Assembly (NCBI GenBank): GCA_002726935.1
Contig: PBTC01000042.1
Coordinates: 1 to 43,991, forward strand
Direction: 5' to 3'
Origin: Candidatus Saccharimonadota bacterium
Lineage (GTDB): Bacteria > Patescibacteriota > Saccharimonadia > Saccharimonadales > Saccharimonadaceae
DNA length: 43,991 nt
In this document: positions 8,945-32,400 of the stretch, piece after piece
How the letters are laid out: each line of letters opens with the position of its first letter
Position numbering within the stretch: position 1 is the stretch's first letter
Translations under genes and position numbers: made by a program
Notes under the pieces: generated by a model
What the model saw: the letters and a program-made list of their open reading frames with translations, nothing else
What the model was told of the DNA's origin: nothing
Databases searched by the model: none

Positions 8945-9553
8945 ATGAAGAAAATTGATGCCGTCACACAGGATCAACCAAAGAAACCAGGAATGCCTGG
9001 CACCGTTTCCATTCGATCTCTGGGCGATCTCAAAATTTTCGGAGTCGTTGCTTTAACAGGAGAGGCTTGTAAGTTCGGGACACGAGTGCTCTGCGACGTG
9101 ACGGCCGCGGGTGCCGAAATGTTGTCGGCCTACTTCCAGGCTGGTTTAACCCTCGAGAAGAACTGGAATCAAGGTGATCCATCAGACCCTCATATTGGCA
9201 GCATTATGATTGATCGCGCGATCGCTACACCACTGGCGAAATTTGCACTGCTTCACAACGGAGCACTCCTAATTGCTGAGTCTGAAAGAATGATTGGTCC
9301 TGGATCCGTTGTCGGGATTTTCTCCGAGCACTGGAAAAAGCAATATGAAGATCACAATGCAAAGGTGATCCAAGAGTGTGCCAGCGAAAACAATGGAGAC
9401 CAAGGGGCCATTTGGAAGCCAGAGGGGGCTCAGTATCGCCTAGGGATGTTCCAACTCCAGGTCAATCCCAATCCCGGGCCTCGCATGGAAAACACGAATA
9501 CGCACGAGGCAACCGGCCGAACTATGAAGGCCCCGGCCCCATCAATGGGTTAG
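8945..9553 (+). CDS. Hypothetical protein (202 aa)
   Basis: The start ATG 8945 has an AAGG site and a candidate operator just upstream. The product is soluble, with a flexible N-terminus (KKPGMPG), a central alpha/beta part (residues about 20-150, including EHWKKQYEDH) and a low-complexity Pro/Asn-rich tail (NPNPGPRMENTNTHEATG). No signal peptide or known motif is visible and I recognise no family. It follows the kfrA-like gene but has its own regulatory region. It converges on 9558 with only four bases between the stops. Confidence 0.6.
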   Translation: MKKIDAVTQDQPKKPGMPGTVSIRSLGDLKIFGVVALTGEACKFGTRVLCDVTAAGAEMLSAYFQAGLTLEKNWNQGDPSDPHIGSIMIDRAIATPLAKFALLHNGALLIAESERMIGPGSVVGIFSEHWKKQYEDHNAKVIQECASENNGDQGAIWKPEGAQYRLGMFQLQVNPNPGPRMENTNTHEATGRTMKAPAPSMG

Positions 9554-12662: not shown

Positions 12663-12691
12663 TTGACTTTTTATTTAAATACGATTATGAT
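12663..12691 (+). promoter_or_regulatory. Sigma70-type promoter of a predicted small RNA
   Basis: TTGACT (12663-12668), a 17-base AT-rich spacer and TATGAT (12686-12691) make a strong promoter match. No coding start follows before the terminator at 12757-12788. Confidence 0.65.
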
Positions 12692-12697
12692 TTAAAC

Positions 12698-12788
12698 ACT
12701 GGATTCTTGCAGCAGCTAGATCTAGTTTGTCACCTCCCCCTCCTAACAAGAGGTTCGGCCAGAGCCTGGAGTTCTGGCCAATTTTTTG
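12698..12788 (+). ncRNA. Predicted small RNA (about 90 nt)
   Basis: A strong promoter (12663-12691) and a strong intrinsic terminator (stem 12757-12779 plus U-run) bracket about 90 bases with no convincing coding sequence. The middle, probably unpaired, contains the C/U-rich stretch 12730-12743. Its TCACCTCC matches the anti-Shine-Dalgarno end of 16S rRNA and could pair with ribosome binding sites. Function, partner mRNAs and Hfq dependence cannot be judged from sequence. It lies directly upstream of the tRNA-array promoter. Confidence 0.5.
12757..12788 (+). terminator. Intrinsic terminator of the predicted small RNA
   Basis: GGCCAGA (12757-12763) and TCTGGCC (12773-12779) form a perfect seven-pair stem with a nine-base loop, followed by AATTTTTT. 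Confidence 0.75.
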
Positions 12789-12837: not shown

Positions 12838-12866
12838 TTGACGAACAAAAATAATGTGTTTATAGT
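12838..12866 (+). promoter_or_regulatory. Sigma70-type promoter of the tRNA-array leader
   Basis: TTGACG (12838-12843), an exactly 17-base spacer and TATAGT (12861-12866) give a near-consensus promoter, with A/T-rich DNA upstream that could act as an UP element. It is the nearest strong promoter ahead of the tRNA array, about 540 bases before tRNA-Thr. Confidence 0.7.
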
Positions 12867-12897: not shown

Positions 12898-13074
12898 ATG
12901 AACGCAACGATTACACAGACAGGAGCACAAGTGCACGCCGCACTGCGGGCGTCCGTTTGTCGTATCCAGCGCTCTTTCGATCAAAAGTCATTTAATAAAC
13001 CGATGCCCTCGAATTATTGGTCATTTAACGAGCCAGCAATTAAGAGTTCATCGGAAGTCAAAATCCCGGGATAA
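12898..13074 (+). CDS. Possible small leader protein (58 aa)
   Basis: An ATG at 12898, behind AGAGAG, opens 58 codons ending at TAA 13072-13074. It lies about 30 bases after the leader promoter. The product is polar and slightly basic (MNATITQTGAQVHAALRA...), without recognisable motifs. It could be a translated part of the tRNA-array leader or only a chance frame. Its position ahead of boxA is the main reason to list it. Confidence 0.35.
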   Translation: MNATITQTGAQVHAALRASVCRIQRSFDQKSFNKPMPSNYWSFNEPAIKSSSEVKIPG

Positions 13075-13210
13075 GTAGGCCAAGCGGTCTGCAGGCTCCC
13101 CGGGAGGGGAACCAAGACCTTAAGCAGCTTAGCCTGGCACCAGCCACAAGCCTCCAAAGTTTTAAGACCCCAAACAACAGAGCCGCGTTTGAGCACTATG
13201 CTTGAGCGTT

Positions 13211-13222
13211 TGTTCTTTAACA
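13211..13222 (+). promoter_or_regulatory. boxA-like antitermination element
   Basis: TGTTCTTTAACA differs by one base from the TGCTCTTTAACA boxA of E. coli rRNA leaders, which recruits the NusB-NusE antitermination complex. It lies between the leader promoter and the first tRNA gene. Confidence 0.65.
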
Positions 13223-13246: not shown

Positions 13247-13294
13247 TAAGTTAGGCAAATGGATTGCGCGTACGCAGTCTGTTTGCCTAACTTA
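13247..13294 (+). other. 22-bp leader stem (RNase III-type) before the tRNA array
   Basis: TAAGTTAGGCAAA (13247-13259) pairs perfectly with TTTGCCTAACTTA (13282-13294). The inside continues with two wobble pairs and a seven-pair GATTGCG/CGCAGTC helix around a CGTA loop, giving a 22-pair hairpin. Long stems like this next to boxA are RNase III processing sites in rRNA operons. The rest of 13075-13409 shows no gene I can support. Confidence 0.7.
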
Positions 13295-13409: not shown

Positions 13410-13486
13410 GCCGGTTTAGCTCAGTTGGTAGTAGCAATCGCCTTGTAAGCGATAGGTCGTCCGTTCGAGTCGGACAACCGGCACCA
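13410..13486 (+). tRNA. tRNA-Thr(TGT)
   Basis: Acceptor GCCGGTT/AACCGGC, anticodon loop CTTGTAA (anticodon TGT), T loop TTCGAGT and encoded ACCA. It is the first tRNA after the boxA leader. Confidence 0.93.
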
Positions 13487-13680
13487 ATGTTGATTTATTT
13501 AGTAAGCGCTTTGTTTTAAGCGGGTGATTTTTGTGCAGGGAAATCGGAACGGCCTCGTGTTGAGGTTAGGTACGTGTCGCTACAGACCCACCGCCCAGGC
13601 AGCAGATGGGCCTGTTTCTAACAGAGTGCTTACCAAATCGATCGTGATTCCGAAGTGATTTAATAAGTGAGGGCTTAAGT

Positions 13681-13854
13681 ATGAAGATCGTACTAAAGGG
13701 GAAAACAAAGAAGCCTCGAAAAAGCAATGCCGTTTTGTTCCGCTCGGGTTCGGGCTGGCATAAGAAAAACGAGAAGACACTCCGCAGGCAAGCGCAAGTG
13801 CGCCTAAAGAAAGATCAGGAGGTTTTTCAAAGCACATTGTTCAGTGTTCTTTGA
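13681..13854 (+). CDS. Small, very basic protein within the tRNA array (57 aa)
   Basis: ATG 13681 has a GAGGG ribosome site and opens 57 codons ending at TGA 13852-13854. The product is rich in Lys and Arg (MKIVLKGKTKKPRKSN...), which suggests RNA or DNA binding, and it has no membrane segment. Its stop codon overlaps a second boxA-like element. No family is recognised. It sits between tRNA-Thr and tRNA-Glu on the same strand, so it should be co-transcribed with them. Confidence 0.55.
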   Translation: MKIVLKGKTKKPRKSNAVLFRSGSGWHKKNEKTLRRQAQVRLKKDQEVFQSTLFSVL

Positions 13855-13856
13855 AA
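13845..13856 (+). promoter_or_regulatory. Second boxA-like element
   Basis: TGTTCTTTGAAA resembles the boxA form seen in rRNA operons of other bacteria (TGTTCTTTGAAAA) and lies 30 bases before tRNA-Glu. It overlaps the end of the 57-residue gene, so its conservation may be partly due to coding. Confidence 0.45.
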
Positions 13857-13886
13857 AGCCTGTTTGATCGAATAAGAAACAACCGT

Positions 13887-13963
13887 GCTCCCATCGTCTA
13901 GATGGCCAAGGACTCCGCCCTTTCACGGCGGTAACAGGGGTTCGAATCCCCTTGGGAGTGCCA
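13887..13963 (+). tRNA. tRNA-Glu(TTC)
   Basis: Acceptor GCTCCCA/TGGGAGT, D arm GTCTAGATGGCCAAGGAC, anticodon loop CTTTCAC (anticodon TTC), T loop TTCGAAT and GCCA end. Confidence 0.93.
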
Positions 13964-13991
13964 AATAATCGCCCAATTAATGGAGGCAAAA

Positions 13992-14297
13992 ATGCTTAAA
14001 AAAACAAAGGGAATTGAAATCGTGCTTCGCCCAAGCGTCTCCATGTTGGGAGAGGTAAAGCACGAAGTAATCAACGCAAAAGAACTCAAAAGCTGGCGCG
14101 TTGAAATTCGAGTAAATGGGAAGGTCAACCAGTCCCAAAGGGTGTATTGCCAAAGCGACGTTGCATTGGCCACCAAAACAATGCTTCGTACCGAGCACCT
14201 CTTGGGGAACTTTTCTTCCTTTACTCGAGCTGCCACTAAAGGTACCAAATCCTATTCTCATGACTATGAGAGCAGACTAAGGCCGGTTGCGGCCTAG
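13992..14297 (+). CDS. Hypothetical basic protein within the tRNA array (101 aa)
   Basis: The frame also contains ATG 13980, but that ATG is part of the GGAGG ribosome site serving ATG 13992, which is the better start. The product is basic and Lys-rich at the N-terminus (MLKKTKGIEIVLRPS) with a beta-rich middle (LKSWRVEIRVNGKVN) and no membrane segment. I recognise no family. It lies between tRNA-Glu and tRNA-Met on the same strand, so it is probably expressed from the tRNA transcript and freed by tRNA processing. Confidence 0.6.
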   Translation: MLKKTKGIEIVLRPSVSMLGEVKHEVINAKELKSWRVEIRVNGKVNQSQRVYCQSDVALATKTMLRTEHLLGNFSSFTRAATKGTKSYSHDYESRLRPVAA

Positions 14298-14368
14298 AGC
14301 AAACAAAAACCTTGGGGAGCGAACTGGCGCAGAAGCCAGCGCACCCAAGGCAGCTCTAAAAAATCAGA

Positions 14369-14446
14369 TGCGGTGTAGCTCAGCCTGGCAGAGCAGAGGG
14401 CTCATATCCCTTTTGTCGTCGGTTCGAATCCGACCATCCGCAACCA
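14369..14446 (+). tRNA. tRNA-Met(CAT), initiator-like features
   Basis: Anticodon loop CTCATAT (anticodon CAT), D-loop AGCCTGG and encoded AACCA. The anticodon stem ends in three consecutive G:C pairs (GGG/CCC), a hallmark of initiator tRNA, but positions 1 and 72 (T, A) can pair, unlike a typical bacterial initiator. Acceptor pairs 6-67 and 7-66 are mismatched. CAT could also be an Ile(AUA) tRNA after TilS modification, which the sequence alone does not settle. Confidence 0.85.
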
Positions 14447-14455
14447 ATTTAACCT

Positions 14456-14542
14456 GGGTAAGTATGCAAACGGCTGAAGCAAGCGGTCTGTAAAACCGTG
14501 ACATAAGAAACATTGCTGGTTCGAGTCCAGCCTTGCCCACCA
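14456..14542 (+). tRNA. tRNA-Tyr(GTA)
   Basis: A class II tRNA with acceptor GGGTAAG/CTTGCCC, anticodon loop CTGTAAA (anticodon GTA), an extended variable arm, T loop TTCGAGT and ACCA. Confidence 0.92.
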
Positions 14543-14545
14543 AAC

Positions 14546-15175
14546 TCACATGGTCATTCTGGACTTAAGATTCGATCTTTGAGCCTCGCCCATGCAGACA
14601 TGATCATAGTTAGCGCGCCCTATTCGCCGTACTTCCGCTGCGGATATAGGTGCTAGGCTGTAATCAAATTCGAATTCATGTGAGAAATCTTGAGAGTTTC
14701 CAAGTTGACCTTTGATGGTGACCTTGGATTCGTTATATAGCTTATCGACACGCTGTGTAAGCACAAAATTGCCAGACCTGTTCATCTCGAACGCCGTAAC
14801 CGTTGTTGTACTTTGCTGAGGGGGTGGCTTCCCTGTCTCGATGCTTATGCCCTCTTTTATCAACGCGATAATACTTTGAGCGCGCTCAGTCCACAGTGAG
14901 CTTATCTCCGGCGTCTGGCCGTCAATGCTTGCAACTCCGATAGAGCCTGACTCGCTTGAAAAATATTGCAGGTGATCAATCCCCTCAATATTCACAATGT
15001 CCAGCATATCTTTGCACTGTGAAAGAAGATCAAATCTACGTCGACTCTCAATTGCAGCAGCCTGAATATCAAATTCTACCGAACTGGAATTCGGTTCGTT
15101 GCTCTTCTGTTCAAACGAAGGTTCAGCCTTATCTCGAAGTAGATTCATGGCTTTCTTAAAAATGTTGACTTTCAT
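14546..15175 (-). CDS. Hypothetical protein (209 aa), antisense within the tRNA array
   Basis: ATG 15175 follows a strong AGAGGTG site. The 209-residue product starts with a Lys-rich amphipathic helix (MKVNIFKKAMNLLRDK), a Ser/Asn-rich linker and a mixed alpha/beta body ending in a basic tail. No signal peptide or known motif is seen. It is the only minus-strand gene between the tRNA genes and splits them into groups of 4 and 16. The second group may therefore have its own promoter in 15176-15262, where I see only a weak TTGGTC/TTATTC candidate. Confidence 0.55.
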   Translation of the reverse strand: MKVNIFKKAMNLLRDKAEPSFEQKSNEPNSSSVEFDIQAAAIESRRRFDLLSQCKDMLDIVNIEGIDHLQYFSSESGSIGVASIDGQTPEISSLWTERAQSIIALIKEGISIETGKPPPQQSTTTVTAFEMNRSGNFVLTQRVDKLYNESKVTIKGQLGNSQDFSHEFEFDYSLAPISAAEVRRIGRANYDHVCMGEAQRSNLKSRMTM

Positions 15176-15262
15176 CGTTCACCTCTTTGGTCCTTTTATC
15201 GTATTTAGAGACTACATGTTGGTCAACTTTTTCCGCCACTGATTATTCAGTTAATAGTTTCT

Positions 15263-15339
15263 CTCCGATTAGCTCAAGTAGGTAGAGCGCGTGCTTTGGG
15301 AGCATGAGGTTGCAGGTTCGAGGCCTGTGTTGGAGACCA
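15263..15339 (+). tRNA. tRNA-Pro(TGG)
   Basis: Acceptor CTCCGAT/GTTGGAG, anticodon stem CGTGC/GCATG, loop TTTGGGA (anticodon TGG), T loop TTCGAGG and ACCA. Confidence 0.92.
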
Positions 15340-15349
15340 TTTTTTCAGC

Positions 15350-15428
15350 GTCAGAGGAAGACGATGGCAGTCGGCCGGCCTCCAAATCCGTGCAGTCATG
15401 GGTTCGATTCCCTGCTCTGGCGCCACCA
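15350..15428 (+). tRNA. tRNA-Trp(CCA), irregular
   Basis: Acceptor GTCAGAG pairs fully with CTCTGGC and is followed by G73 and CCA, as in bacterial tRNA-Trp. The anticodon loop is CTCCAAA (anticodon CCA). The anticodon stem has only three clear pairs and the T stem seems to carry one bulged T. It may be divergent or decaying. The downstream bases read CCACCA, so the 3' end (15425 or 15428) is ambiguous. Confidence 0.65.
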
Positions 15429-15451
15429 AATTTCTTTCAATCATTAACTTC

Positions 15452-15527
15452 GCACCTTTAGCTCAGTTGGTAGAGCAGTGGCCTGAAGAGCCATGTGTCG
15501 CTGGTTCGATTCCAGCAAGGTGCACCA
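15452..15527 (+). tRNA. tRNA-Phe(GAA)
   Basis: Acceptor GCACCTT/AAGGTGC, anticodon loop CTGAAGA (anticodon GAA), T arm GCTGG/CCAGC and ACCA. Confidence 0.94.
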
Positions 15528-15535
15528 TTTCCCCC

Positions 15536-15611
15536 GGGGCCATAGCTCAGCCGGGAGAGCGCCTGCTTTGCAAGCAGAGGGTCGTCGGTTCGACCCCGAC
15601 TGGTTCCACCA
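15536..15611 (+). tRNA. tRNA-Ala(TGC)
   Basis: Acceptor GGGGCCA/TGGTTCC with the G3:T70 wobble that marks alanine tRNA, anticodon loop TTTGCAA (anticodon TGC), T loop TTCGACC and ACCA. Confidence 0.94.
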
Positions 15612-15621
15612 TTGTTCAATT

Positions 15622-15715
15622 GGAAATCTTAGCCGAGTGAGGACTAGCGGCGACTGTCTTGAAAACAGAAGGCCCAGCGATGGGTGTCAGGGTTCGAGCC
15701 CCTGGATTTCCGCCA
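15622..15715 (+). tRNA. tRNA-Ser(TGA)
   Basis: A class II tRNA with GGAAATC acceptor, anticodon loop CTTGAAA (anticodon TGA), a long variable arm, T loop TTCGAGC and GCCA. Confidence 0.93.
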
Positions 15716-15724
15716 CTTTTTATC

Positions 15725-15802
15725 CCTTCCTTAGCTCATTTGGATCAGAGCGCCTGGCTACGAACCAGGGGGTAGCAAGTTCGATTCTTGCAGGAAGGTC
15801 CA
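15725..15802 (+). tRNA. tRNA-Arg(ACG)
   Basis: Acceptor CCTTCCT/AGGAAGG, anticodon stem CCTGG/CCAGG, loop CTACGAA (anticodon ACG) and TCCA. A34 must be deaminated to inosine by host TadA to read CGU, CGC and CGA. Confidence 0.94.
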
Positions 15803-15812
15803 CGTTTTCACA

Positions 15813-15889
15813 CTCGGAGTGCCAGAGCGGTCTAATGGCCTCGCCTGCAAAGCGATTGATCCCCGGTTCGAATCCGGGCTCCGAGTCCA
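15813..15889 (+). tRNA. tRNA-Cys(GCA)
   Basis: Acceptor CTCGGAG/CTCCGAG, anticodon loop CTGCAAA (anticodon GCA), T73 (the cysteine identity base) and CCA. Confidence 0.92.
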
Positions 15890-15902
15890 ATTTTAATCTT
15901 TA

Positions 15903-15977
15903 GGTCCCATCGTCTACCGGCTAGGATCGCGCCCTGTCACGGCGCAGAAACGGGTTCGACTCCCGTTGGGACCGCCA
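15903..15977 (+). tRNA. tRNA-Asp(GTC)
   Basis: Acceptor GGTCCCA/TGGGACC, anticodon loop CTGTCAC (anticodon GTC), T arm ACGGG/CCCGT, G73 and CCA. Confidence 0.93.
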
Positions 15978-15988
15978 TTTTCGTTTGT

Positions 15989-16063
15989 TGTGATGTAGCT
16001 CAGCGGTAGAGCGCCGTCTTGATAAGGCGGTGGTCGTTGGTTCGATTCCATCCATCACAACCA
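15989..16063 (+). tRNA. tRNA-Ile(GAT)
   Basis: Acceptor TGTGATG/CATCACA, anticodon stem CCGTC/GGCGG, loop TTGATAA (anticodon GAT), A73 and CCA. Confidence 0.92.
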
Positions 16064-16072
16064 CAACACATC

Positions 16073-16148
16073 AGGGGAGTAGCTCAGCGGTAGTAGCGCC
16101 TGCCTTACACGCAGGAGGTCCACGGTTCAATCCCGTGCTTCCCTACCA
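16073..16148 (+). tRNA. tRNA-Val(TAC)
   Basis: Acceptor AGGGGAG/CTTCCCT, anticodon stem CCTGC/GCAGG, loop CTTACAC (anticodon TAC), T loop TTCAATC and ACCA. Confidence 0.93.
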
Positions 16149-16160
16149 AGTCTTCGTTGT

Positions 16161-16247
16161 GCCCAGATGGTGGAATTGGTAGACACACCATCTTGAGGGG
16201 GTGGCGCCAGAAATGGCGTTCGGGTTCGAGTCCCGATCTGGGCACCA
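16161..16247 (+). tRNA. tRNA-Leu(GAG)
   Basis: A class II tRNA with acceptor GCCCAGA/TCTGGGC, anticodon loop TTGAGGG (anticodon GAG), an extended variable arm, T loop TTCGAGT and ACCA. It is the second leucine tRNA in the window after Leu(TAG). Confidence 0.93.
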
Positions 16248-16261
16248 GTTTTGATTTCAAT

Positions 16262-16337
16262 TGGGGGTTAGTTCAGTGGTTAGAACACCGGATTTTGATT
16301 CCGGGTGTCGCAGGTTCGAGTCCTGCACCCTCTGCCA
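16262..16337 (+). tRNA. tRNA-Gln(TTG)
   Basis: Acceptor TGGGGGT/ACCCTCT with a non-pairing first position (weak 1:72 is typical of glutamine tRNA), anticodon loop TTTTGAT (anticodon TTG), G73 and CCA. Confidence 0.92.
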
Positions 16338-16345
16338 TTTTCCGT

Positions 16346-16422
16346 GGCGTCCATCATCTAGAGGCCTAGGATCCCGGGTTGTGATCCCGGCAACATGGGT
16401 TCGAATCCCATTGGACGCCCCA
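16346..16422 (+). tRNA. tRNA-His(GTG)
   Basis: An extra 5' G (position -1) faces C73, the histidine identity pair. Acceptor GCGTCCA/TGGACGC, anticodon stem CCGGG/CCCGG, loop TTGTGAT (anticodon GTG) and CCA. Confidence 0.94.
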
Positions 16423-16433
16423 TTCTTCTTCTC

Positions 16434-16511
16434 GGCGGTATAGCTCAGTGGTCTAGCAGCACCCGGCTTTTAACCGGATGGTCCTGGGTTCAAATCCCAG
16501 TGCCGCCACCA
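16434..16511 (+). tRNA. tRNA-Lys(TTT)
   Basis: Acceptor GGCGGTA/TGCCGCC, anticodon loop CTTTTAA (anticodon TTT), T arm CTGGG/CCCAG, A73 and CCA. Confidence 0.93.
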
Positions 16512-16519
16512 TTTTTAAT

Positions 16520-16594
16520 TCCACGAAACGCACCGGGTGTGCGGCCGGACTGTTAATCCGTGTGAGTTTGGTTCAAGCCCAAATCGTGGAGCCA
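16520..16594 (+). tRNA. tRNA-Asn(GTT)
   Basis: Acceptor TCCACGA/TCGTGGA, anticodon loop CTGTTAA (anticodon GTT), T loop TTCAAGC, G73 and CCA. Confidence 0.92.
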
Positions 16595-16629
16595 TCATTT
16601 CTGAGCGCTTGAGTCGCTCAACCTCCCAT

Positions 16630-16721
16630 AGAGACATGGCCGAGTGGCCTAAGGCGCCTTCCTGCTAAGAAGGAACTGGGTGTATGCCTGGTCGAGGGTT
16701 CGAATCCCTCTGTCTCTGCCA
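16630..16721 (+). tRNA. tRNA-Ser(GCT)
   Basis: A class II tRNA with acceptor AGAGACA/TGTCTCT, anticodon loop CTGCTAA (anticodon GCT), a long variable arm, T loop TTCGAAT and GCCA. It is the last tRNA of the array and the second serine tRNA, after Ser(TGA). Confidence 0.93.
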
Positions 16722-29089: not shown

Positions 29090-29848
29090 ATGAAGAATTC
29101 TGAATTCGCAGTAGGCGATCAAGTGCGCTTTAATCCATACGGCGTTGAACACCTTTGCGCTGTTACAGACATCTGCCCTCCAAGTATCTACTCCGAGGGA
29201 CTGGTTGAGTATGAGCTGCTACGCTCCGATGGTGTTAAAACACGTGCATCTGGGCTAACAATCGTAGAATCGCAGCATTATGAAAAATACCCCAGTCTCG
29301 TTGATGCGCCAGCATCGATCAGATGCCTGAAAAACCTAGAAGACAAAGAGATGCACTTAATTGCGGCACGCTTTGAAAATGGCAGGCGCTCTGAGTGCGC
29401 AGATGAAGCCAAGCAAATGGCAGAAAAACACCAACACAATGGAAGAGTCCAGTTTATGACCGCTGCAATTCTTGATGCATCTGGCCAGAGAAACTCTGCT
29501 ATGGATTATTACAGAAGAGCTCACTCACTGGGAATCGCCGAGGCTGAGTCAAGAATTGATCGTGAATTTCCTCTGATTGAAATAATGCTTCGTTCACCTG
29601 GAGCCCGCACGGCAGCCACTCATGTCCTGGTCTGCAATAAGGCCGATTTAAATGACGTCTCAAAAAAAGCTACGCGACTGAGGCTGGAGATTGCCGATAT
29701 AAATCCCAAGCAGCTTGAGAAAGAAGAGCGTTTTCAAGTAAAGGACGTTTTTTGCGCAGACGCTAAACGTATTGGATTAAAGAGGTTCCTTGCGCTACCG
29801 GATGCTCCTTCGCCCACCCGAGGTGCCACTAAATCACCAAGCTTATAA
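29090..29848 (+). CDS. Hypothetical protein next to the origin (252 aa)
   Basis: ATG 29090 has an AGG-type ribosome site. The product has an N-terminal beta domain that looks like a small barrel (FAVGDQVRFNPYGV...YELLRSDGVKTRASGLTIV, residues about 6-55), then helices including AMDYYRRAHSLGIAEAESRI (about 144-163), which resembles a tetratricopeptide/Sel1-like hairpin. No membrane segment is seen and I recognise no full-length family. It starts at the far side of the iteron region, divergent from rep, which suggests a link to replication or copy control. Confidence 0.6.
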   Translation: MKNSEFAVGDQVRFNPYGVEHLCAVTDICPPSIYSEGLVEYELLRSDGVKTRASGLTIVESQHYEKYPSLVDAPASIRCLKNLEDKEMHLIAARFENGRRSECADEAKQMAEKHQHNGRVQFMTAAILDASGQRNSAMDYYRRAHSLGIAEAESRIDREFPLIEIMLRSPGARTAATHVLVCNKADLNDVSKKATRLRLEIADINPKQLEKEERFQVKDVFCADAKRIGLKRFLALPDAPSPTRGATKSPSL

Positions 29849-29875: not shown

Positions 29876-30253
29876 TCACAGCGACAGGGACCCGGGATTT
29901 TTCTTTCCCATGGTCCCCAAACTAACGTCCAGGCCCGTTTCGTCTTTGAATAGTGACCGCAATTGGTCTGCATAGACTTGTTCATGTACTGAAATCTTTT
30001 TGTACACGGGCATTTTAACGCCATATTGAGGATCCTTTTGTTTTAGGATCTTCCCAAATTCCATGCTGTACGTGTCTGAGGGCAACAAAGTAATTCGGAC
30101 AACACTAATGTTGTTCTTGGCGAAGTTTTGCGGCAGTTTGAATTGGAGCCCATTCGCGATGGTAAGGAAATTTTTCGCGCCGGTCATGGCGGTGAACTTT
30201 GACCCCCCCAATTGGTCGAGGATGGTTTGAGCGATATTTGTGGTCGTGTTCAT
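29876..30253 (-). CDS. Conserved phage/plasmid-type hypothetical protein (125 aa)
   Basis: ATG 30253 has a GGAAGGAAA site and is preferred over the in-frame ATG at 30268. The product begins MNTTTNIAQTILDQLGG and has the pattern SKFTAMTGAKNFL...LQFKLPQNFAKNNIS...VRITLLPSDTYSMEFGKIL...VYADQLRSLFKDETGLD. I associate this with a small protein family widespread in prophages and plasmids but without a known function. It is cytoplasmic by appearance. It forms an operon with 30278-30508. Confidence 0.6.
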   Translation of the reverse strand: MNTTTNIAQTILDQLGGSKFTAMTGAKNFLTIANGLQFKLPQNFAKNNISVVRITLLPSDTYSMEFGKILKQKDPQYGVKMPVYKKISVHEQVYADQLRSLFKDETGLDVSLGTMGKKNPGSLSL

Positions 30254-30277
30254 GACGTTTCCTTCCATATAGATCTC

Positions 30278-31851: not shown

Positions 31852-32400
31852 TCACATTGAAGGAGCCTTGCTTTTCGCAAGCTTCTTTGTGGCCGACGGA
31901 TCAACCATCTCCATTGATACAAAAGAATCAGGGTTGTCAGTAACACTGGCCAAAAAGTCGTCAAGCTCGGAGACTAGATTCATTTTCCACCCAGGCCCAA
32001 CAGCACGCGCAGTGGCCCTAAGGTTCAGAATCGAAGTCTTCAGATTATCAAGGTATTCGTCTCGAATTTCGACAAGCTCAGCTTGACATTCTTCTCTATC
32101 CATTAAGTAGGACGGTGAGGTCAAGAATCGGTCATTCCGGCCCGATCCAAGTGATGACCTCACACGCTGGCAAACCAAAGAATCTCCGTGGAGCCTGAGT
32201 ATTTCTACTCTGTTAAGGGTCCCTTTGACTGTGCAGGGCATCTCCGGGTATTCGCGGTTGTCATCATCAATGTCTACAAGTGCCTTTCCAGTCAATTTTG
32301 AAACTACTTCGACACTCATTTCGAACACTTGAATTTCGCGAAGGGCTTCTTCACCTTTATCCTCGACTAGTTCCTTGAGTTCCCTTATTTCCTGCTTCAT
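31852..32400 (-). CDS. Hypothetical protein (182 aa)
   Basis: ATG 32400 has an AAGGAC site. The product begins with a charged helix (MKQEIRELKELVEDKGEEALREI), likely to be a coiled coil, followed by a mixed domain with single cysteines (MPCTVKG, LVCQRV, EECQAEL) and a basic end (KKLAKSKAPSM). There is no signal peptide, transmembrane segment or known domain. It lies about 130 bases upstream of the HNH-like gene on the same strand and is divergent from the GNAT gene at 32644. Confidence 0.55.
   Translation of the reverse strand: MKQEIRELKELVEDKGEEALREIQVFEMSVEVVSKLTGKALVDIDDDNREYPEMPCTVKGTLNRVEILRLHGDSLVCQRVRSSLGSGRNDRFLTSPSYLMDREECQAELVEIRDEYLDNLKTSILNLRATARAVGPGWKMNLVSELDDFLASVTDNPDSFVSMEMVDPSATKKLAKSKAPSM

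Follow-up and report, generated by a model that had tools for sequence, protein, structure and literature searches.

A putative plasmid-borne small RNA resembling the betaproteobacterial double-hairpin toxic small RNAs

A group of B. cenocepacia small RNAs is described as consisting of two hairpins with CU-rich stretches, some of which are reverse complements of ribosome-binding sites, and overexpression of one of them, ncS27, is reported to slow growth, an effect that is reversed in direction when the complementary strand of its CU-rich region is expressed instead (PMC5688073, PMC4603805, PMC11722255, PMC8780938). B. pertussis S17 is described as an Hfq-dependent RNA that RNase E cleaves and that represses BP2158 directly; its short form, S17S, is reported not to be similarly toxic (PMC11722255). 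Both ncS27 and the long form S17L are said there to begin with extra 5′ sequence that is lost by processing (PMC5688073, PMC11722255). According to these papers, the targets of the published relatives are repressed, with the same kind of CU-rich elements lying over ribosome-binding sites (PMC5688073, PMC11722255).

We analyzed a 43,991-nucleotide stretch of DNA (the window) in which an earlier note had pointed to a strong promoter and a strong terminator framing about 90 bases. Both signals were recovered. A sigma-70-type promoter (TTGACT-17-TATGAT, positions 12663 to 12691, plus strand) carries 10 of the 12 consensus bases, and an intrinsic terminator on the same strand (12757 to 12787) forms 9 pairs, 6 of them G-C, in GGCCAGAGCCTGGAGTTCTGGCC, followed by AATTTTTT. 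With the start placed from the −10 box and the end from the T run, we infer a small RNA of about 90 nt (12698 to 12787, plus strand) that would be made from its own promoter and stop at its own terminator. Taken separately, neither type of site is commoner in the region than expected by chance (5 promoter-like sites versus 6.1 in shuffles; 8 terminator-like sites versus 7.7). When a promoter of at least 10/12 was required to be followed, 40 to 140 nt downstream, by a terminator with 8 or more pairs, this was the single case in 333,829 bases (the window contig C42 and its sister contigs C14 and C19, both strands); five order-1 Markov controls yielded 0, 0, 1, 0, and 0 cases. The 90-nt RNA has a predicted fold of −30.1 kcal/mol (z = −2.4; 3 of 200 shuffles were equally good) that comprises a 5′ leader hairpin (12698 to 12726, plus strand), a CU-rich hairpin (hairpin 1; 12732 to 12754, plus strand), and the terminator hairpin (hairpin 2). 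The earlier description of this interval as lacking a gene was fair, since none of the three mechanical open reading frames spanning it had a Pfam match over the cut-off, but not absolute, since these frames, of 57 to 115 amino acids, do cross it.

When the region was scanned with cmscan using lax filters, the Rfam family RF02278 (Betaproteobacteria_toxic_sRNA) matched over its full length (model positions 1 to 64 of 64) at 12728 to 12786 on the plus strand, leaving the 5′ leader hairpin outside the match. The score of 27.3 bits is below the Rfam gathering cut-off of 50, and its E value is 0.0031 for 841 bases against 4,227 families or 0.16 for the whole window against the same 4,227. A pattern for the family consensus retrieved at least 120 stretches, mostly from Burkholderia, Paraburkholderia, and Caballeronia. 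Ten Burkholderiales-type genomes gave 85 RF02278 matches at E ≤ 0.1, 32 of which exceed the Rfam cut-off; 70 of the 85 were read, and the 42 with at least 43 bits were aligned. Of the 16 pairs predicted in this alignment, 12 are kept through two-sided changes in at least one sequence. A family model built from these 42 members (R1), run with filters off, gave the small RNA the top place in the window (18.8 bits, E = 0.0056), the second-best place scoring 14.9 bits (16.0 bits in a default-filter search). This score is only 2.3 bits over the best control, as R1 reached maxima of 16.4 bits in 99.8 kb of E. coli and 16.5 bits in 91.6 kb of other loci, a family copy on contig C14 being set aside. 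R1 searches with default filters missed the small RNA in the window; a search of the bin's genome with RF02278 also missed it, although this search found the C14 copy. Low-scoring RF02278 matches at E ≤ 0.1 were also obtained in 6 of 14 control genomes.

The resemblance can be followed along the sequence. The stretch TGTCACCTCC (12728 to 12737, plus strand) differs from the family 5′ end, TGTCTCCTCC, at a single base; written against the family's nearly invariant UGUCUCCUCC in the 42 members, the 5′ end UGUCACCUCC agrees at 9 of 10 positions. As in the family, a second CU-rich stretch (CCTCCT, 12739 to 12744, plus strand) falls within the hairpin 1 loop under the favored register of the predicted fold, a short linker follows hairpin 1, and the terminator serves as hairpin 2. 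The family's hairpin 1 closure, UCCA...UGGA, is absent from the small RNA, whose predicted stem is ACCUC/GAGGU or CCUC/GAGG. Because the hairpin 1 stem differs, membership in RF02278 is probable on these comparisons rather than proven.

We also compared the small RNA with the family after excluding the terminator. Beginning at UGUC, a 30-nt segment aligned to the 42 members with a mean score of 7.87, compared with 3.62 ± 0.95 for mononucleotide shuffles, none of which reached the observed value (0 of 3,000). With a swap-type dinucleotide shuffle, 367 of 1,500 sequences reached it; this procedure was judged to alter a 30-mer too little, and on that ground the Altschul-Erickson dinucleotide shuffle was substituted, with which 11 of 3,000 did so. 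When 90 terminators on C42, C14, and C19 were ranked by the 30 nt that precede them, the small RNA came out at 8.12, the C14 copy at 8.07, and the next at 7.21, while 110 control terminators ranked in the same way did not exceed 6.06. The third-ranked plasmid terminator (7.21) was rejected as a family member, since it does not start with UGUC and its likeness seems fortuitous.

The earlier note had drawn attention to eight bases identical to the end of 16S rRNA and had called this match weak by itself, with which we agree. Relative to the E. coli rrsD tail (...GGATCACCTCCTTA), the stretch TCACCTCC at 12730 to 12737 is the sole copy in the window, where 1.2 are expected by chance; some 8-mer of the 16S tail was present in 204 of 20,000 mononucleotide shuffles of the 90-nt RNA (1%). 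The match is thus at chance level in the window and by itself is no evidence. It is also half hidden in the predicted structure: within TCACCTC, ACCTC (12732 to 12736) pairs with GAGGT (12750 to 12754) about two-thirds of the time, in rivalry with the second CCUCC. The alternative register pairs the second CCTC (12739 to 12742) with the same GAGG and lies 0.5 kcal/mol away (−20.8 and −20.3 kcal/mol for a 60-nt form; −30.1 and −29.6 kcal/mol for the 90-nt form), and CCTCCT in loop 1 has an unpaired probability of 0.74 to 0.98. Since both CU-rich stretches pair with one GAGG, the two anti-Shine-Dalgarno-like stretches are mutually exclusive in the predicted stem.

These observations lead us to favor a reading in which the small RNA is probably a plasmid-borne, diverged relative of the RF02278 RNAs. 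A housekeeping promoter would yield an RNA of about 90 nt that stops at the terminator, and a cut after the 5′ hairpin, in a short U-rich gap, could then produce a shorter form, about 60 nt long and starting with UGUC, as reported for S17 and ncS27. As UCACCUCC and CCUCCU would vie for one GAGG, one stretch would always be free; it may, probably together with Hfq, pair with Shine-Dalgarno sequences on several mRNAs, and such pairing would exclude the 30S subunit and so repress these targets. The covering of Shine-Dalgarno sequences is borrowed by analogy from the published relatives. The earlier suggestion of a translation regulator that pairs with ribosome sites is partly supported, its original grounds being weaker: the 8-mer is at chance level in the window and its ACCTC is predicted to be mostly paired. 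Pairing with ribosome-binding sites has the best support among the readings, as the predicted RNA resembles an experimentally studied family for which that action has been proposed. Target prediction, which the note had recommended, proved uninformative. Across the 358 genes of C42, C14, and C19, 68 start regions were predicted to pair at ≤ −14 kcal/mol compared with 57 ± 14 for shuffles of the CU-rich stretch, and 22 of 100 shuffles matched the observed count.

The window corresponds to contig C42 of a 1.34-Mb bin, whereas sixteen relatives of the same genus measure 0.6 to 0.9 Mb. It encodes a Rep_3 initiator, 14 kb from the small RNA, whose nearest relatives belong to Paraburkholderia and Cupriavidus plasmids, and the contig is presumably a betaproteobacterial plasmid that was binned with another organism. 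A phage origin was rejected: there was no phage match, three window proteins had no relatives among viral contigs, and the Rep_3 initiator indicates a plasmid. Many otherwise unrelated predicted proteins of C42, C14, and C19 end in short tails such as GPSM, GPSL, SPGM, and APSM; those in the window are encoded at 8945 to 9553, 29090 to 29848, 29876 to 30268, and 31852 to 32400, and others lie on C14 and C19. Tails of the GPSM/GPSL/SPGM type, a pattern picked after the tails had been seen, terminate 16 of 358 open reading frames on the three contigs. None was present among the controls, which comprised 80 frames on four further contigs of the bin, 98 in E. coli, and 178 in 20 of 120 Burkholderiales-type loci. 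By sequence, these shared tails appear to connect the window contig to C14 and C19; they may mark proteins for sorting, export, or degradation.

The copy on C14, in the same bin (49085 to 49141, minus strand), is a solid assignment to RF02278 by its sequence scores, with 34.6 bits for the Rfam model and 38.8 bits (E = 8.8e−8) for R1. It likely shares a host or element with the small RNA and has the UGUC start, hairpin, and terminator. Its clear family score sets it apart, as does its own CU-rich UCUCCUC followed by a UU-rich part, with no second CCUCC stretch; like the small RNA, it lacks UCCA...UGGA. Plasmid records show that the family is already known from plasmids, with members in 31 of 72,556 records, all from Paraburkholderia, Caballeronia, or Burkholderia, and the small RNA is a diverged version. 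This version is not described in the accessible parts of the literature that names RF02278 or bdhR1 or that joins toxic small RNA, Betaproteobacteria, and plasmid. A 23-mer core of the small RNA had 0 matches in genome_contigs and viral_contigs, a looser 18-base core identified no direct ortholog, and blastn against plasmids and phages returned nothing convincing. The bin's 60 relatives contained no ortholog, the best other match having an E value of 0.0104; most of the short matches lay in the AT-rich part that holds the promoter. The variant pattern TGTCACCTCC..CCTCC occurs in 3 of 399 Burkholderiales genomes, with a terminator after 1 of the 3. That copy (TGTCACCTCCCAACCTCC, with a UUUGUCA/UGACAAA stem and the terminator) was rejected as an ortholog: it lies in the 3′ region of a gene, and 6 of 297 genomes of its family match it, itself counted, with one other genome among the six matching over most of its length. 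Five of the 399 Burkholderiales genomes share the Rep; all five have R1 matches at E ≤ 1, strong in four (49.8 to 60.7 bits), and on the rep-bearing contigs there was none but one, about 110 kb from rep.

Merging Aragorn (21) and Rfam (20) predictions gives 22 tRNA genes in the window. An array of 19 (13410 to 16721) begins about 620 bases downstream of the small RNA on this plasmid-like contig and includes a gene at 14370 to 14442 that Rfam detected and Aragorn missed. The earlier note had found the position just upstream of this array suggestive. The proximity is real but gives no support by itself, since the predicted RNA ends at a terminator of its own and another promoter (TTGACG-17-TATAGT, 12838 to 12866, 10/12), which precedes a 58-amino-acid open reading frame (12898 to 13074), lies between the two. 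About 190 bases ahead of the first tRNA of the array is TTGTTCTTTAACA (13210 to 13222), which we take to resemble boxA, an antitermination element found in rRNA operons. Between this element and the array is an inverted repeat, AAGTTAGGCAAA ... TTTGCCTAACTT (13248 to 13293), to which Rfam assigns only weak, sub-threshold miRNA matches.

A different account of the likeness is that an unrelated small RNA acts on Shine-Dalgarno sites through the same kind of CU-rich loop, the resemblance being convergence among CU-rich, terminator-ended RNAs. We regard this as rather unlikely. The missing family stem, the sub-threshold RF02278 scores, the failure of the searches above to find an ortholog, and the rarity of the exact 5′ variant would all fit convergence, whereas the agreement of UGUC-CCUCC, the second CCUCC, the GG-UUC linker, and the terminator in both order and spacing would not, nor would the rank of the small RNA next to a solid member among the 90 terminators. 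Homology is preferred mainly because of the terminator-free 30-nt comparison, in the shuffles and in the terminator ranking. It is improbable, in turn, that no functional small RNA exists and that the promoter-like and terminator-like sequences insulate or punctuate a divergent intergenic region ahead of the tRNA operon. The chance frequency of each type of site and of the 8-mer favors such punctuation, and about 0.2 pairs per 334 kb are expected from the Markov controls; yet this is the sole pair in 334 kb, the fold is more stable than most shuffles, and family-like sequence lies between promoter and terminator.

Antisense and copy-number RNAs are common on plasmids, and open reading frames do cross the region, but a dedicated RNA of that type, or a short translated leader, is very unlikely here, given that the opposite strand holds only a 57-amino-acid mechanical frame, that rep is distant, and that none of the frames has a Pfam match over the cut-off. 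Hardly credible at present is a translation take-over module, in which a small RNA mimicking the 16S tail damps initiation on host mRNAs next to an array of 19 tRNA genes that serves the plasmid's own genes, with the competing registers as its switch. If the favored reading, a diverged RF02278 relative, is right, a mainly chromosomal family of RNAs that block ribosome sites would have been acquired by a mobile element that carries a tRNA array, where it then diverged. This would open the question of whether plasmids tune host translation with such RNAs, and it suggests that RF02278 extends below the Rfam threshold.

Among RNAs with related modes of action, the alphaproteobacterial CcsR/alpha-r14 RNA and the staphylococcal Rsa RNAs also pair with Shine-Dalgarno sites through CU-rich loops, but they belong to other lineages and are unrelated to the small RNA in sequence and structure. 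For B. pertussis S17, published accounts describe a long form, S17L, that is cut to a short form, S17S, starting at the T before the CU-rich site, and, like the small RNA, S17 ends in a terminator; S17 itself is described as repressing through pairing near ribosome sites. Positions 2 to 28 of S17S, reported in the same accounts to be identical in many Betaproteobacteria, have diverged in the small RNA. The RF02278 RNAs themselves (ncS03, ncS05, ncS27, and ncS62 of B. cenocepacia; bdhR1) differ from it in the sequence and register of the hairpin 1 stem and in having UCUCCUCC in place of its UCACCUCC, and the small RNA stands apart in scoring 27.3 bits where the cut-off is 50 and in lying on a plasmid-like contig with a GC content of 47.5%. 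It shares with them a length within the published range (57 to 92 nt), the UGUC-CCUCC 5′ end, a second CU-rich stretch in hairpin 1, the UUC linker, and an intrinsic terminator, and with ncS27 it also has in common extra 5′ sequence, which in ncS27 is reported to be removed by processing.
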